A stretch of 64,000 bases of DNA. It comes from Methyloceanibacter sp. wino2 (GTDB taxonomy: Bacteria; Pseudomonadota; Alphaproteobacteria; Rhizobiales; Methyloligellaceae). Made by a program: the position numbers and the translations under genes. Of this stretch, positions 56,970-64,000 are shown piece by piece. The DNA lies in the NCBI RefSeq assembly GCF_003071365.1, contig NZ_CP028960.1, forward strand, positions 496,001-560,000, read 5' to 3'. The notes below the pieces were generated by a model. The model was not told the DNA's origin and ran no database searches. It worked only from the letters and a program-made list of their open reading frames with translations. How positions within the stretch are numbered: the first letter of the stretch is position 1; every line of letters starts with the position of its first letter.

Positions 56970-59069
56970 ATGATGTCATCTCCCGGAAACTCCCCGGGCG
57001 TGGACGGCATCCATGCCCAAGACCCGCATACCGAAGACCCGCACGCACACGACAGGGCCTTGATGGTCATGCGCCATCTCGAGGCCCGCGGGATCAGCGA
57101 CGCCGATGTGCTTGCCGCCATGGCGCAGGTGCCGCGCGAAGTCTTCGTGTCACAGCCCCTTTCCGAGTTCGCTTATGAGGACTCGGCCCTGCCGATCGCG
57201 GCGGGGCAGACCATTTCGCAGCCCTATATCGTCGCGCGGATGATCGAGTTGGCCGAGATCCGCCCCGGCGACACCGTCCTCGAGGTCGGCGCCGGTTCCG
57301 GCTACGCCGCCGCCGTGATAGGCCGCATCGCCTCGTCCGTTTACGCCATCGAGCGCCACGAAGAACTCGCCGATCTGGCGCGCGAGCGGGAGGCCCGGCT
57401 CGGCTACGACAATGTCGAGATCATCTGCGGCGACGGCACCAAGGGCTGGCCGCCGGAGGCACCGTTCGACGCGATTATCGTGTCGGCGGGCGGTCCCAAA
57501 GTTCCGGAGGCCTTGAAGCGGCAGCTTGCAGTTGGCGGACGTCTCGTCATCCCGGTGGGCCGGGACGTGTACCAGACCCTTATTCGCGTACGGCGTACCG
57601 GAGAGGATACGTTCGAGGAGGAAGACCATGGCGGCGTGACCTTCGTTCCCCTTATCGGCGAAGAAGGCTGGGAGGCCCCACGCCAAGCCAAGGCGGAAAC
57701 CCAAATCGATTCCGAAACATCTGGCATTGCCAATGGGCTGTTGACGCCCGCGCCGCAGGCACGGGCTCCCCACACCGACCTCAGCCACGTGATCGCCGGC
57801 GCCGCGGAACCCTTCGGCGACTTCACGGAACTGACCGCACTCGCGGAGCGCTTCGCGGACCGGCGCGTCGTGCTTCTCGGTGAGGCAACGCACGGCACTG
57901 CCGAATTCTACGAAGCGCGTGCCCGCATCACCGAGATGCTCGTCGCAAAACATGGGTTCAATGTTGTTGCCGTGGAAGCCGACTGGCCGGACGCTGCGGT
58001 CTACGACGCTTTCGTGCGTGGCCTTCCCAGGCCTGAGACTCCCGCCAGCGCATTCACCCGCTTCCCGGCCTGGATGTGGCGCAACGGTCAGGTCAATGCT
58101 TTCCTGCAACGCCTGAAGGCTATCAACGAGAGCATCGCCGATCCCGACAAGCGCGCAGGGTTCTACGGGCTAGACGTCTACAGCCTGGCGACCTCGATCG
58201 GCGCGGTTCTCAACTATCTGGACAATATCGATCCTGAAACCGCCCGCATCGCACGCGAGCGTTACGGCTGCTTGGCGCCGTTCCGCTCGGACCCGGCCCG
58301 CTACGGCCGCATGGCGCTGTCGCAGGGCTATGCCATATGCGAGAGGCCCGTCACCCAGGCCCTAGTCGATCTATTGAAGAAGCGTCTGGGCTATCTAGCC
58401 CGCGACGGCAGCGCCTTTTTCAATGCGGAGCAAAACGCCCGCATCGTCGTGGCCGCCGAGCAGTACTACCGCATCATGTATTACGGCGCGGCGCAGTCGT
58501 GGAACTTGCGGGACCAGCACATGTTCGACACGCTGGAGCGTGTTCTGGAGCACCGCGGTCCCGACGCGAAGGCGGTGGTTTGGGCCCACAACTCCCATAT
58601 CGGCGATGCGGAGTTCACCGAGATGGGCCAGGTACGCGGTGAACTGAATATCGGCCAGCTGGCGCGCGCGCGCTTTGGCGAGGACTGCGCGCTTATCGGT
58701 TTCGGCACGGATCGCGGCACGGTCGCCGCTGCCTCGAACTGGGACGAGCCTATGGAAATCAAGCGTGTGCGCCCTGCCCGCAACGACTCCTACGAGGGAC
58801 GCTCCCGCGACGCCGGCATCGAGGCTTTCTTCCTGGAGACCGGAACGGGACAAAAGGACAGCGTGCGCGAAGCGCTTGCCGAACCCATGCTGGAACGGGC
58901 CATCGGCGTCATCTACCGGCCGGAGACGGAACTGCTATCGCACTACTTCCAGGCGGAACTATCGAAACAGTTCGACGCGTGGATTTGGTTCACCGAAACG
59001 AACGCCGTCGACGCAAGGCCTCAAGCCCATCCTCATGGGCCCGACGAAACATTTCCGTTTGGATTGTAG
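56970..59069 (+). CDS. PCMT-erythromycin esterase fusion protein
   Basis: 699 aa, one chain with two enzymes. Residues 28-235: protein-L-isoaspartate O-methyltransferase, with GQTISQPYIVARM, SAM motif VLEVGAGSGYAAAV (103-116), and GDGTKGWPPEAPFDAI. Residues about 285-690: erythromycin esterase-like domain, with LLGEATHGTAEFYEARARI (E305 and H308 are expected catalytic residues) and VVWAHNSHIGDAEF. The linker (240-280) is low in conservation. The start ATG 56970 is followed by a second ATG. The combination suggests repair or detoxification of damaged proteins or lactones; the real substrate of the second domain is unknown. Confidence 0.93.
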   Translation: MMSSPGNSPGVDGIHAQDPHTEDPHAHDRALMVMRHLEARGISDADVLAAMAQVPREVFVSQPLSEFAYEDSALPIAAGQTISQPYIVARMIELAEIRPGDTVLEVGAGSGYAAAVIGRIASSVYAIERHEELADLAREREARLGYDNVEIICGDGTKGWPPEAPFDAIIVSAGGPKVPEALKRQLAVGGRLVIPVGRDVYQTLIRVRRTGEDTFEEEDHGGVTFVPLIGEEGWEAPRQAKAETQIDSETSGIANGLLTPAPQARAPHTDLSHVIAGAAEPFGDFTELTALAERFADRRVVLLGEATHGTAEFYEARARITEMLVAKHGFNVVAVEADWPDAAVYDAFVRGLPRPETPASAFTRFPAWMWRNGQVNAFLQRLKAINESIADPDKRAGFYGLDVYSLATSIGAVLNYLDNIDPETARIARERYGCLAPFRSDPARYGRMALSQGYAICERPVTQALVDLLKKRLGYLARDGSAFFNAEQNARIVVAAEQYYRIMYYGAAQSWNLRDQHMFDTLERVLEHRGPDAKAVVWAHNSHIGDAEFTEMGQVRGELNIGQLARARFGEDCALIGFGTDRGTVAAASNWDEPMEIKRVRPARNDSYEGRSRDAGIEAFFLETGTGQKDSVREALAEPMLERAIGVIYRPETELLSHYFQAELSKQFDAWIWFTETNAVDARPQAHPHGPDETFPFGL

Positions 59070-61258: not shown

Positions 61259-62014
61259 ATGGGCCAAGCCCACCATAACAGCCAAGCCCTTCGAGACGGC
61301 CAAGCCGGGCAGACCGGCCAGGCCATCCGGATGAGCCATGCGCTCGACACGGCCCCCGCGTGCGCCATCCCGGCGCCGGCCAACATGACACCCGCCGTCA
61401 ACGAGGCGCCCGCCACCTCAGCGCCCATCAACAAGGTGTCGACGCTGACGTCGGCGCGACCTGTCTCGGCGCGGCCCTTCTCGCCGCTGCGCGAGCGACT
61501 CCTCCGCCGCAAGGTGACCATCGCCGGCAAGGACGGCCATCCCCATCTCGCCCGCCCCATCAACGAGACGGACGCAGGAAGGCTCATCCGCTGCTACGAC
61601 GCCATGACGGACCGGGGCCGCTGGTTCCGCGTGCTGCATCACCTGCCGCACCTCTCGCAAGACATGGCGCGCGACTTCTGCACGCCCGACCCCGAGCGCG
61701 ATCTGTGCATCGTGCTGGAAGGCGACGGGCCGCTCGAAGGCGAGATCTTAGGGGGAGCGCGCATCACCGGCAGCCAGGACGGCAAAACGGCCGAATATTC
61801 CGTGACGCTCCGCCCGGAAGCCGAAGGCCTCGGCCTTGCCCACAAGGCACTCGAGCTCGTGTTCGAGGCAGCGCGCGAGATGGGCTACACGCATATCTGG
61901 GGCACGATCCATTCGGAGAACGGCCCCATGCTCCAACTCGCCCACAGCCTCAACCTGCATGTGCACCGCGATCCCAACGACGCCGCCCTGATGGTGTCCG
62001 AAGGGGACCTCTAA
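61259..62014 (+). CDS. GNAT-family acetyltransferase with Ala-rich N-terminal extension
   Basis: 251 aa from ATG 61259. The GNAT domain occupies about residues 80-251: a start IAGKDGHPHLARPINETDAGRL, motif A seen as TLRPEAEGLGLAHKALELVFEAAREMG (with E-x-x-G-L-G), and a terminal part HIWGTIHSENGPMLQLAHSLNLHVHRDPNDAALM. The pattern is like the C-terminal domain of Pat-type protein acetyltransferases. The first 75 residues are rich in Ala, Pro and Thr and poorly ordered. No good ribosome site is seen, so the start is uncertain (ATG 61331 is also possible). Flanked by the short repeats. Confidence 0.75.
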   Translation: MGQAHHNSQALRDGQAGQTGQAIRMSHALDTAPACAIPAPANMTPAVNEAPATSAPINKVSTLTSARPVSARPFSPLRERLLRRKVTIAGKDGHPHLARPINETDAGRLIRCYDAMTDRGRWFRVLHHLPHLSQDMARDFCTPDPERDLCIVLEGDGPLEGEILGGARITGSQDGKTAEYSVTLRPEAEGLGLAHKALELVFEAAREMGYTHIWGTIHSENGPMLQLAHSLNLHVHRDPNDAALMVSEGDL

Positions 62015-62031
62015 GAGGCTCTGGTTTTTGC

Positions 62032-62061
62032 CCTACCAGCCTAGCGGCCTGCTTGAGCGCG
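62032..62061 (+). repeat. Short repeat, copy 3
   Basis: 30-base variant of the unit at 60974 (CCTACCAGCCTAGCGGCC then TGCTTGAGCGCG), carrying two extra bases. It lies 18 bases past the GNAT stop. Confidence 0.65.
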
Positions 62062-62129
62062 GGCGCGCCAAAACCCCCGCTGCCGTCCGGCACCAGGTTC
62101 CTCAAACTCCCTACGTCTCAAAACTCAAA

Positions 62130-62142
62130 CCCGCGAAGCGGG
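62130..62142 (+). repeat. GCGAAGC mini-hairpin
   Basis: CCCGC-GAA-GCGGG, a perfect 5-bp stem closed by a GAA loop. The core GCGAAGC is a known extremely stable DNA mini-hairpin. A second example is at 62245. Confidence 0.55.
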
Positions 62143-62244
62143 ACGTGCGGGGCGCTGGTCGGCCGCCGTCCGTTTAGTTTTGGTGGGCAGCCTTCCGGCG
62201 CCCCGCATGGCCTTTGGACAGTGCTTCGCATACAATAACAAAAC

Positions 62245-62257
62245 CGAGCGAAGCTCG
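62245..62257 (+). repeat. GCGAAGC mini-hairpin
   Basis: CGAGC-GAA-GCTCG, the same GCGAAGC core with a different outer stem, 115 bases after the first. Confidence 0.55.
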
Positions 62258-62763
62258 CCTCAAGGCCGCAGCGATGTTTTAGAGCCCCATGCCGCGCGGC
62301 TTACCTCCAGTGGCACAGGCACGCGCGAACGCGCGCCTCACCCGACGACCCACGCGTTACAGCGCAGGTGGGCGGATTAGGGACCCCCGAGGCTGGTCCG
62401 TTAGCCGCGACGCGGTTTTCCGGCACCGGCCTCCACTGAGACTTCGACACCATCCGTACCGCGCCACCTCGGGCGCTGCATCCCCCGCCCCGAGAGCAGA
62501 CGGTCTGCAGCTCGCGTCCTCACGAACGAGGGATGGAGGCAGTGTACGGCCGGTTTCGGGGGGTGGGGATAAGGGGTGATTAACTAGGTCGGCGGCCGGT
62601 AGCGCCGAGAAAGAAGGAATACATCGTCTTGAATCTGACAATTATGTTCTCTATATGTTCTGGGGACGAATGTGTTGAATGGGCTTTCCCAAGCGTTTCT
62701 GGCGCTAAAATTAGCAGTGATTCGTATGCTCTACCTGCGCGATCTCAGTCGGAAAAGGCCACC

Positions 62764-63264
62764 ATGTTTTCAGATGAGGACTTCTTACAGCTCCAGAAGG
62801 ACCAGTACGCTCATGATGTGCGGCACCACTCAGATATCACATCACTGCACAAGACGGAGCGTCTCAAACACTACGGTCTCCATTTCGCGAAGTATGTGGG
62901 GCGATTGGCAAGGGAAGCAGAAGAGTCCAAGCCGATCGAACGAACACTTGTGGATGCATTCCTCATTAGCCTCAGCGCAGCGAACACCCTCCACCAGAGA
63001 CTCGGCGACGGAGAGAGGAGCCCACAGCGAAGCAGAAGGCAAGTTGATCCTCTTCGGACCTTAGCGGATGCTGTTGGTCGATTTGCGGATGCTTGCGAAA
63101 AGATTGATCACCTCGAAGAGTTCGTCGCCCTCGCACGAAGGGCCAACGTTGATGTGATGCATTGGATTGTAGACGCTGCCGACGAGCGCTCCCTTGATTT
63201 GGTCTCAGCTGCGACGGATAGAAGGAAAGAGCTGAAGGCTCGTTGCTTCTACCTCGACAACTAA
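62764..63264 (+). CDS. Helical protein with MazG-like pattern, partner of the Dcd-like gene
   Basis: 166 aa from ATG 62764; an upstream in-frame start at 62629 would add 45 residues that look like non-coding sequence. The core REAEESKPIERTLVDAFL followed by ISLSAANTLHQRLG resembles the E..E, E-x4-D, A-N-x-L-x-x-x-L-G pattern of all-alpha NTP pyrophosphatases (E51, E54, E59/D64), but the spacing is only approximate. The tail (DLVSAATDRRKELKARCFYLDN) is helical. The Dcd-like gene starts 19 bases downstream, so the two are one unit. The codon use is less GC-rich than in the main chromosome. Confidence 0.55.
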   Translation: MFSDEDFLQLQKDQYAHDVRHHSDITSLHKTERLKHYGLHFAKYVGRLAREAEESKPIERTLVDAFLISLSAANTLHQRLGDGERSPQRSRRQVDPLRTLADAVGRFADACEKIDHLEEFVALARRANVDVMHWIVDAADERSLDLVSAATDRRKELKARCFYLDN

Positions 63265-63283
63265 TTCAACGAAGGGAGGCCCG

Positions 63284-64000
63284 ATGCCATTTTGGAGTGG
63301 GGAGACCTTGTTACGGGAGCTCCCTTCCATAGTCACAGAGGGCTACGATCCCGACAGGGTCGATTGCGCCGCATACACCCTTCGCATGGGTTCAGAGGCC
63401 TATGTTTCTCCATCTGAGGCGGAACAGGATCCAAAAAAAATAACTATCCAGCAAATCGGACGTGCCGGCGCCTTTACGATCCCCCCTGGACAATTTGCAT
63501 TCCTACTCACCGAGGAACACATCAAGATCCCTCAAGGTGCCATAGGATTCATCTCGATAAAGACTCGCATCAAGTTTCGCGGGCTTGTGAACGTCTCTGG
63601 TTTTCACGTTGATCCTGGCTACTCTGGTCGCCTCATCTTTGCTGTGTTCAACGCCGGTCCTAGGCCTATTCACCTTAGGCGTGGAGATGAATGTTTTTTG
63701 ATGTGGCTAGCGAGCCTCGACGATCCAAATACCAAGATGATACGAGACAAAGATGGCTTTAATTCCATCAACACGGACTTGGTATCCAAGATCAGCGGCC
63801 CTGTAATGTCATTTGAGGGTCTGAACGCAAAAATTGGCGACTTGAAAAAGGACTATGACAAGCGGATCGGAACCATTGAGCTGCAGAACGCAATAATTAA
63901 ATGGGCTGCGATGGCAATATTTGCCATTTTGATTGGCGTTGTCGTTACACCGACAATCCGCGGTGCGTGGCAGGACTGGAGTTCCCCGAACGATGGCGCT
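63284..64000 (+). CDS. Membrane-tethered dCTP-deaminase/dUTPase-like protein (partial, runs off window)
   Basis: 239 residues are present with no stop before the window end. Residues 1-145 form a Dcd/Dut-like trimer domain: WSGETLLRELPSIV, QFAFLLTEEHIKIP, SIKTRIKFRGLVNVSG, then FHVDPGYSGRLIFAVFNAGP. Alignment by eye with the deaminase motif (DPGWSG....E.YNSG) places Ala120 where the catalytic Glu stands, so deaminase activity is doubtful. Residues 176-200 look like a short coiled coil, and AIIKWAAMAIFAILIGVVVTP (about 203-222) is a membrane helix. GAAGGGAGG is a very strong ribosome site before ATG 63284. AT-richer than the main chromosome. Confidence 0.72.
   Translation, partial: MPFWSGETLLRELPSIVTEGYDPDRVDCAAYTLRMGSEAYVSPSEAEQDPKKITIQQIGRAGAFTIPPGQFAFLLTEEHIKIPQGAIGFISIKTRIKFRGLVNVSGFHVDPGYSGRLIFAVFNAGPRPIHLRRGDECFLMWLASLDDPNTKMIRDKDGFNSINTDLVSKISGPVMSFEGLNAKIGDLKKDYDKRIGTIELQNAIIKWAAMAIFAILIGVVVTPTIRGAWQDWSSPNDGA

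Follow-up and report, generated by a model that had tools for sequence, protein, structure and literature searches.

The chemistry of dUTPases, dCTP deaminases (Dcd), thymidylate synthases, UDGs and 5-hmdU kinases is in every case a chemistry of uracil-type deoxynucleotides. DefensePredictor (PMC13092281) predicts, so far without validation, defence systems with dUTPase, MazG, MazG-C, UDG and aGPT-PPlase domains, and reports thymidylate-synthase and 5-hmdU-kinase domains in systems newly validated in E. coli. In the Kongming system (KomABC) a non-canonical dNTP, dITP, is the signal or messenger of infection (PMC12948488). Dimeric and trimeric phage dUTPases act as regulators in the control of SaPI by Stl and are modulated by dUTP (PMC5608427), and HmdUTP is present during infection by phage phiW-14 (PMC5977210). 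Each of these reports is cited for the parts of it that were consulted.

Here, we describe a small island of four genes, A to D, at the end of the window, by which we mean the whole stretch of 64,000 nucleotides that was analysed, positions 496001-560000 of one 3.21-Mb single-contig genome. The initial annotation of the window proposed that A and B are a coupled pair, that B senses nucleotides at the membrane, and that no system with this pair had been described. The last of these statements was too strong, since the consulted parts of the DefensePredictor report (PMC13092281) already predict defence for dUTPase, MazG, MazG-C and UDG domains.

Results

A compact AT-rich island at a variable site

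The island spans about 3.3 kb and lies partly beyond the window; its remainder was read from a 19-kb stretch around it that reaches past the window end (L009). Gene A (62764-63264, + strand, 166 aa) is followed after 19 bases by gene B (63284-64048 in extended coordinates, + strand, 254 aa), whose reading frame is still open at the window end at 64000. The thymidylate-synthase-like gene C (extended 64057-64761, L009 4058-4762, + strand, 234 aa) begins 8 bases after B, and gene D (extended 64758-65864, L009 4759-5865, + strand, 368 aa), a family-4 UDG with a Panacea-like tail, overlaps C by 4 bases. The short B-C spacing, the C-D overlap and the common strand suggest that A to D form one operon. 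For gene A the ATG at 62764 was preferred to the TTG at 62629 because it agrees more closely with the starts of homologues. The 19-base gap on which the proposed coupling was founded is confirmed by the ORF coordinates; the view of A and B as a unit holds in so far as they are a conserved pair (see below), but they make up only half of the local operon, C and D lying past the window.

The GC fraction per 500 bases is 0.61-0.69 over the 2.7 kb upstream, 0.49-0.56 over about 62500-66000 and 0.62-0.66 downstream, in agreement with the difference in composition from the preceding chromosome that had been noted. The gene-poor border of 750 bases was also recovered, between the end of the previous plausible gene, a GNAT-like ORF, at 62014 and the start of A, and it was found to contain a repeated GC-rich element (62030..62574, + strand) at the left edge of the island. 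On the other side, 3' of D, a bestrophin-like gene lies on the opposite strand. The small island with A to D was probably imported.

Two other genomes of the genus carry about 1.8 kb of unrelated genes at the island site. In G005 both flanks are collinear with the window (82-95%) up to the same two points, and the cargo (L128 4562-6127) includes a Beta_protein gene (PF14350, 1.6e-43). In G004 the right flank matches at 96% and the border element at 78%, the DNA further left in the stretch compared being unmatched, and the cargo consists of a 352-aa protein without a Pfam match and an HTH-like protein. As judged from these alignments the site appears to be one of variable cargo within the genus and the system appears to be mobile. 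A convergent gene of 195 aa in the G005 cargo looks sce7726-like by eye, without Pfam support.

The border element (about 540 bp, apparently non-coding) also stands at this place in G004 and G005, ahead of their other cargo, and of 17 genomes in the genus 11 hold all or part of it. In its own genome further copies lie on the reverse strand at 181831-182388 and 1409501-1409980, with a part of 96 bases at 2440517-2440612 (also reverse), and one own-genome copy outside the window precedes a gene whose product resembles a solved helicase (10uj, 1.7e-132). Of 30 loci, 15 were dropped as partial matches or for contig edges; in 14 of the 15 copies that reach the 3' end, the DNA after the element is poorer in GC than that before it (means 0.554 vs 0.638, Wilcoxon p 0.0004), a result to be read with three of these copies being the island site in three genomes and hence not all independent. 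What lies 3' of the element differs from copy to copy. The element would thus mark the edge of variable cargo and lie outside the operon, and it is a candidate marker of a cargo-insertion hotspot.

Two further features of the region were observed. CCTAGCGGCTGCTTGAGCGCG-like short repeats, each about 31-34 bases long, lie near gene ends (60980, 61020 and 62047 in the window; 6750-6850 in L009), and further copies were seen in several genomes of the genus. Judged by eye, the ORF at 56970-59069 of the window appears to encode a fusion of a protein-L-isoaspartate methyltransferase with an erythromycin-esterase-like part.

Gene B has a Dcd fold, a predicted membrane segment and no deaminase Glu

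The dCTP-deaminase/dUTPase fold first proposed for B was upheld, and a long helix with a hydrophobic stretch agrees with the proposed membrane helix; the coiled coil named in the initial annotation is a putative feature. B matches the Pfam DCD family (PF22769) at 2.9e-15, and TIGR02274 scores 65.8 bits on B, under the equivalog cut-off of 92.8. Among PDB sequences a profile of 10 homologues matches 9ln0 and 8y1w at 6e-21 (solved dUTPases annotated as dCTP deaminase), the Bacillus halodurans Dcd-dUTPase 4xjc at 7.5e-14 and the E. coli Dcd 1xs4 at 3.5e-11. The monomer model (pLDDT 93.2), compared with 1xs1 and 4xjc, supports the Dcd fold and shows a single long helix, residues 177-232, that includes a hydrophobic stretch. 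Of 91 B sequences, 86 show a C-terminal stretch of 19 residues whose mean hydropathy exceeds 1.6; one membrane segment is predicted for B. The five sequences lacking such a stretch are L019, L025, L047, L063 and L080; of these, L025 proved to be an ordinary Dcd and was left out of later counts, which leaves 90 loci.

In the alignment with 4xjc, the Glu of its TLELFN motif pairs with Ala120 of B. We take this Glu to be the catalytic one of Dcd deaminases, a role that is fitted by the E138 and E145 mutant entries among the solved Dcd structures. Across 74 aligned rows (the window's B and 73 of the 80 loci from genome_contigs) residue 120 is Ser in 42, Ala in 31, Thr in one and Glu in none, and the loss that had been noted at Ala120 is thus a property of the family. 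B should not be a Dcd-type deaminase. The loss of Glu speaks only against Dcd-type deamination and is compatible with other enzyme activity of B.

The positions G100, L101, N103, S105, G106, F107, H108, D110, P111, G115 and N123 do not vary among the 74 rows and include a block, GLxNxSGFHxDP, that is the family's own; such a block without the deaminase Glu is as expected of a retained ligand pocket. D110, kept in every row, is presumably the catalytic-type Asp of trimeric dUTPases, and its retention suggests that B may be an active dUTPase. The nearest solved structures, dUTPases of Thermococcus type, have Met at the Glu-aligned site. The earlier suggestion that B is not a plain enzyme is unproven in view of this Asp and of these structures. 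The Arg-Ser-Ser motif, which we assume to be the phosphate motif of trimeric dUTPases, is present as RSS in 4xjc and is not kept in B, where positions 93-95 are K or R in 72 of 74 rows, A in 53 of 74, and then variable.

Gene A is related to dUTPases by its predicted fold

The product of gene A is all-alpha and is predicted to fold like the dimeric dUTPases, members of the all-alpha NTP-PPase superfamily. This agreement was found for the predicted structure with VIA-align and, weakly, in a viral structure library, where the two matches below 0.001 are both uncharacterised proteins. Foldseek of the A model against the PDB gave nothing below 0.001. No Pfam family matched A at E up to 1, NCBIfam and PADLOC likewise gave no match, and the best PHROG match is a family of unknown function. 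A profile of A against six PF08761-type sequences gave an hhalign probability of 0.4%, a value at which homology is still possible. With hhalign at this level, the PDB search blank and the viral matches uncharacterised, it is the fold that relates A to dUTPases. The assignment of A to a named family of MazG or dUTPase proteins was dropped, Pfam, NCBIfam, PADLOC and hhalign all being without a match. The all-alpha NTP pyrophosphatase reading of A thus survives as a predicted structure but has no backing from Pfam, NCBIfam or PADLOC: the HMMs gave A no named relative, whereas the fold comparison did.

In the alignment of the A family Q11, Q14, H17, D18, H22, H36, H40, K43 and D64 are invariant, E112, D115, H116 and E118 are nearly so, and an invariant ExxE pair is absent. 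In six dimeric dUTPases, which could not be aligned with A, the invariant residues are E48, E51, E74 and D77. Given the dimeric-dUTPase fold predicted for A and the Dcd/trimeric fold of B, the operon is predicted to pair both unrelated dUTPase folds, one of them altered at its catalytic site and membrane-tied.

One homologue of A (L101 3573-4211) seems by eye to be circularly permuted, its ACExxDHxE-like part standing ahead of the HDxxxH part. A distant A-like protein (E 3e-4) is encoded in the jumbo phage pPa_SNUABM_DT01 of Pseudomonas (L106 8938-9690), directly upstream of a gene noted as PhuZ-tubulin-like.

Genes C and D

On C, TIGR03283 scores 62.2 bits (4.7e-17), under the cut-off of 174.55, and there is no match in Pfam or among PDB sequences at E up to 1. 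In its family of 54 rows a Cys and an Asn are each kept in 53, with one gap each, and an Arg in 25; we take the Cys to be the nucleophile and the Asn the base-recognising residue of thymidylate synthase. D matches the UDG superfamily (PF03167) at 1.3e-28, and its nearest solved sequence is the family-4 UDG 4zbx (6.8e-23); it falls under the cut-offs of TIGR00758 and NF040953. The tail of D matches PF13274 (SocA/Panacea) at 0.0003 with 22.1 bits, under the cut-off of 25.7. Matches to D occur in 275 of 289 genomes of the class, own included, because ordinary UDGs match too; the one that stands out (G640, 1.9e-40) belongs to an ORF of 214 aa without the Panacea-like tail. PADLOC-DB gave no family at E up to 1 for any of A, B, C and D. 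Among the families searched, neither a 5-hmdU kinase nor MazG, a peptidase or acpS was found in the 19 kb of L009.

Sporadic distribution and modular neighbourhoods

In scans of genome_contigs and viral_contigs that covered pattern-matching stretches, relatives of B were found in 190 of 260 such stretches in genome_contigs, whereas viral_contigs held one B locus and two A loci. The best 80 of the 190 were taken on; these are mostly from Pseudomonadota, with single loci in, for example, Binatota, Acidobacteria, Eremiobacterota, Chloroflexi, Acidimicrobiia and a cyanobacterium. B also matches 13 plasmid records, with at least 80% of B covered in seven, and 53 phage records, none of which covers 80% of it. 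Among the window's own genome and 60 relatives (61 genomes) there are two B matches, the own one and one weak partial match, and a survey of 397 genomes from the phylum gave four with A, the window's own among them, one of the four being marginal and with an internal stop. From the sparse genome counts, the plasmid records and the near-absence from viral contigs, the A/B system appears to be sporadic and cellular or plasmid-borne. One locus (L026), in a record titled Bacillus sp. 2B10, has the order HTH-ImmA-TS-HMUDK-MazG-acpS-B that is common in alphaproteobacterial loci, and reflects either contamination or recent transfer.

Companion genes were sought in 91 loci (80 from genome_contigs, 10 from plasmids and L009) with HMMs built up from seeds, and Pfam searches of example proteins served to check the names given to the domains. 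In the 90 B loci the companions are HMUDK (58), HTH (56), TS-like (53), ImmA/IrrE (53), MazG (45) and A (42), followed by holo-ACP synthase (32), C1 peptidase (22), small UDG (16), DUF1643 (11), canonical TS (9) and UDG-Panacea (1, the window's own), all of these counts being lower bounds because many contigs end within the locus. HMUDK, UDG or DUF1643 is nearby in 84 of the 90 loci, and the Pfam match of an example kinase to HMUDK_hel is 1e-104.

Where A is present it lies immediately upstream of B on the same strand (42 of 42 loci), with a gap of -17 to 30 bases, median 3, a figure that depends on the choice of start. The adjacency in other genomes by which the coupling of A and B was to be judged was thus found, A standing directly upstream of B in 42 of 90 loci; the other 48 B loci are without A. 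On a quick tree of B (88 rows, 31 of 85 inner branches open) the presence of A changes at least 11 times, that of MazG at least 9, that of HMUDK at least 13 and that of TS-like genes at least 11 times, and with changes this frequent the loci look modular. A mutual exclusion of A and MazG, suggesting replacement of one by the other, was considered (MazG present/absent in 6/36 loci with A and in 39/9 without; Fisher 1.8e-10) and was not upheld, there being two independent supported pairs on the B tree and no significance in the sign test.

Two archaeal plasmids carry A and are absent from the 13 plasmid records with a B match. On one of them, a haloarchaeal plasmid from Natronomonas (L154 5001-6545), A is followed after 16 bases by a gene for a DUF4231/SLATT-like membrane protein, by which A is again paired with a membrane protein, and then by a ThsB-type TIR gene; an HMUDK-type nucleotide-kinase gene is near. 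The second plasmid, whose locus is likewise haloarchaeal, has a nucleotide kinase, a dTMP kinase, a phosphopantetheinyl transferase, HTH, ImmA and a C1 peptidase, together with a protein that has a weak thymidylate-synthase match (0.0023, under cut-off).

Defence genes beside some loci

From every second locus (40 loci) 138 neighbouring ORFs were drawn out of 277, and 113 of them were compared with PADLOC, where they matched 62 families. Among the best 25 of these 62, the strong matches beside B loci (5.2e-61 or better) comprise at least three to ThsB, at least two to AbiEii and at least one each to HamB, TIR-pAgo and AbiEi. A control of 48 proteins (45 of the 46 window ORFs and three variable-site proteins that do not properly belong in it) also matched 13 families, mostly general ones (mad2, mad3, mad8, PycC, PD-Lambda-2_C, AriA), and an enrichment of defence genes beside B is therefore not claimed. 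Since these counts are of families and not of proteins, the rates are not comparable and only the identity of the strong matches was used. Shedu adjoins one B locus and one weak homologue of A. The nucleotide-handling, accessory context first suggested for the pair is borne out, with known defence genes beside some loci.

Discussion

The island may represent, in compact form, a mobile accessory system that is centred on uracil-type deoxynucleotides and most likely acts against phages, such a nucleotide being sensed at the membrane. We favour this reading tentatively, at somewhat less than an even chance. A nucleotide-responsive membrane device is preferred because B lacks the mark of a Dcd-type deaminase and has both a conserved pocket block and a membrane segment, and because A, with the other dUTPase fold, is coupled to it or, in an archaeon, to a SLATT-like membrane protein. 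A and B would bind a uracil-type nucleotide abundant in infected cells, dUTP or, as with phage phiW-14, 5-hydroxymethyl-dUTP. Binding would change B, which is presumably a membrane-held trimer, and the changed B would damage the membrane or signal there, so that the infected cell no longer supports the phage. C could supply or compete for a dUMP-type ligand, D could read uracil-type bases of the phage DNA or cut them out, and the system might be held in check by D's Panacea-like tail. The ligand, the signalling, the membrane effect and the anti-phage function of A to D are what we infer from these features, the putative effector being suggested solely by the membrane segment of B.

A bolder form of the same idea, which we hold to be possible though on the unlikely side, is that the two unrelated dUTPase folds, all-alpha and all-beta, have been recruited in evolution into one receptor at the membrane, whose ligand would be a uracil-type deoxynucleotide appearing in phage-infected cells. 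Ligand binding would open or deform the membrane and abort infection, while the synthase, 5-hmdU kinase, MazG and glycosylase would adjust the ligand and attack phage DNA of uracil type. If true, this would be an immune receptor built from the folds of housekeeping nucleotide enzymes, and it would let bacteria detect phages whose DNA is based on uracil or hydroxymethyluracil. The unannotated family A now has a predicted fold, and scattered loci with TS-like, 5-hmdU kinase, MazG_C and UDG genes are linked through one nearly constant membrane protein, B.

The main rival is that B is an active dUTPase and that the four proteins are working enzymes. A membrane-tethered dUTPase (B), a second hydrolase (A), a synthase of 5-substituted dUMP (C) and a remover of uracil (D) would jointly deplete or remodel the dUTP/dTTP pool, whether for defence or for pool sanitation, the membrane segment being a mere address. 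The invariant Asp of B, its closeness to Thermococcus-type dUTPases with Met in place of Glu, the Cys and Asn kept in the C family and the match of D to solved family-4 UDGs all fit such a role. At positions 93-95, however, the family of B has K/R, then mostly A, then a variable residue where 4xjc carries its RSS-type motif, A has no invariant ExxE pair, and a pool enzyme would need neither the long helix nor the hydrophobic segment found in 86 of 91 B sequences. We judge this explanation unlikely, while regarding it as a serious one.

Base hypermodification has a lower probability. The wider locus would make a thymine-derived nucleotide or base through the synthase, the 5-hmdU kinase and the holo-ACP synthase, marking self DNA or yielding a small-molecule product, with A and B sensing or sanitising an intermediate. 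HMUDK, TS-like and holo-ACP synthase genes in 58, 53 and 32 of 90 loci, the HMUDK_hel match at 1e-104 and the dTMP kinase added in the haloarchaeal locus of the second plasmid are in line with this, but HMUDK and acpS had no match in the 19 kb of L009, and the glycosylase of the window operon would attack modified DNA and not protect it.

It is more improbable still that the island is a maintenance module of toxin-antitoxin type, with the membrane part of B as toxin and the Panacea-like tail of D as antitoxin: the tail has its weak Panacea match (0.0003, under cut-off) and relatives of B reside on plasmids, but a D-like protein was found in only one of the 90 loci, the window's own. That these are leftover nucleotide-metabolism genes of a phage or prophage is very improbable, for in spite of the distant A relative in one jumbo phage (E 3e-4) and the ordinary Dcd proteins of archaeal viruses and phages, viral_contigs held one B locus and two A loci against 190 B relatives in genome_contigs, none of 53 phage records covered 80% of B, and an inspection by eye of the ORFs listed around the island showed no phage-like genes.

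Comparison with known systems

No description of the A-B pair was found in the literature searched, a weak absence with most subscription journals and bioRxiv outside its coverage. The domain set of the DefensePredictor systems (PMC13092281) overlaps that of the island, and the abbreviations in the legend of its Fig. 3C include TM and CC; the A family and a membrane-tethered Dcd are not named in the parts of that report consulted. Overlap between the island and its predicted dUTPase, MazG and UDG systems is possible.

Family by family, B shares its family, fold and Asp with Dcd, bifunctional Dcd-dUTPases and archaeal dUTPases (PF22769; 4xjc, 1xs1, 8y1w, 9ln0), and differs from them in the replacement of the deaminase Glu (74 of 74 rows), in its own GLxNxSGFHxDP block, and in its long helix and membrane segment. 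From the dimeric dUTPases (PF08761; 5myd, 4dk4, 1ogk) A is set apart by the lack of a Pfam or hhalign match and of an invariant ExxE. As far as the consulted parts of the Kongming report go (PMC12948488), the proteins differ from those of the island and the likeness is one of logic, which for the island is our proposal. The SaPI case, in the portion of the literature consulted (PMC5608427), likewise involves both dUTPase folds: there phage enzymes act on a repressor, whereas in the island the two predicted folds stand side by side in the host, one of them with a membrane segment.
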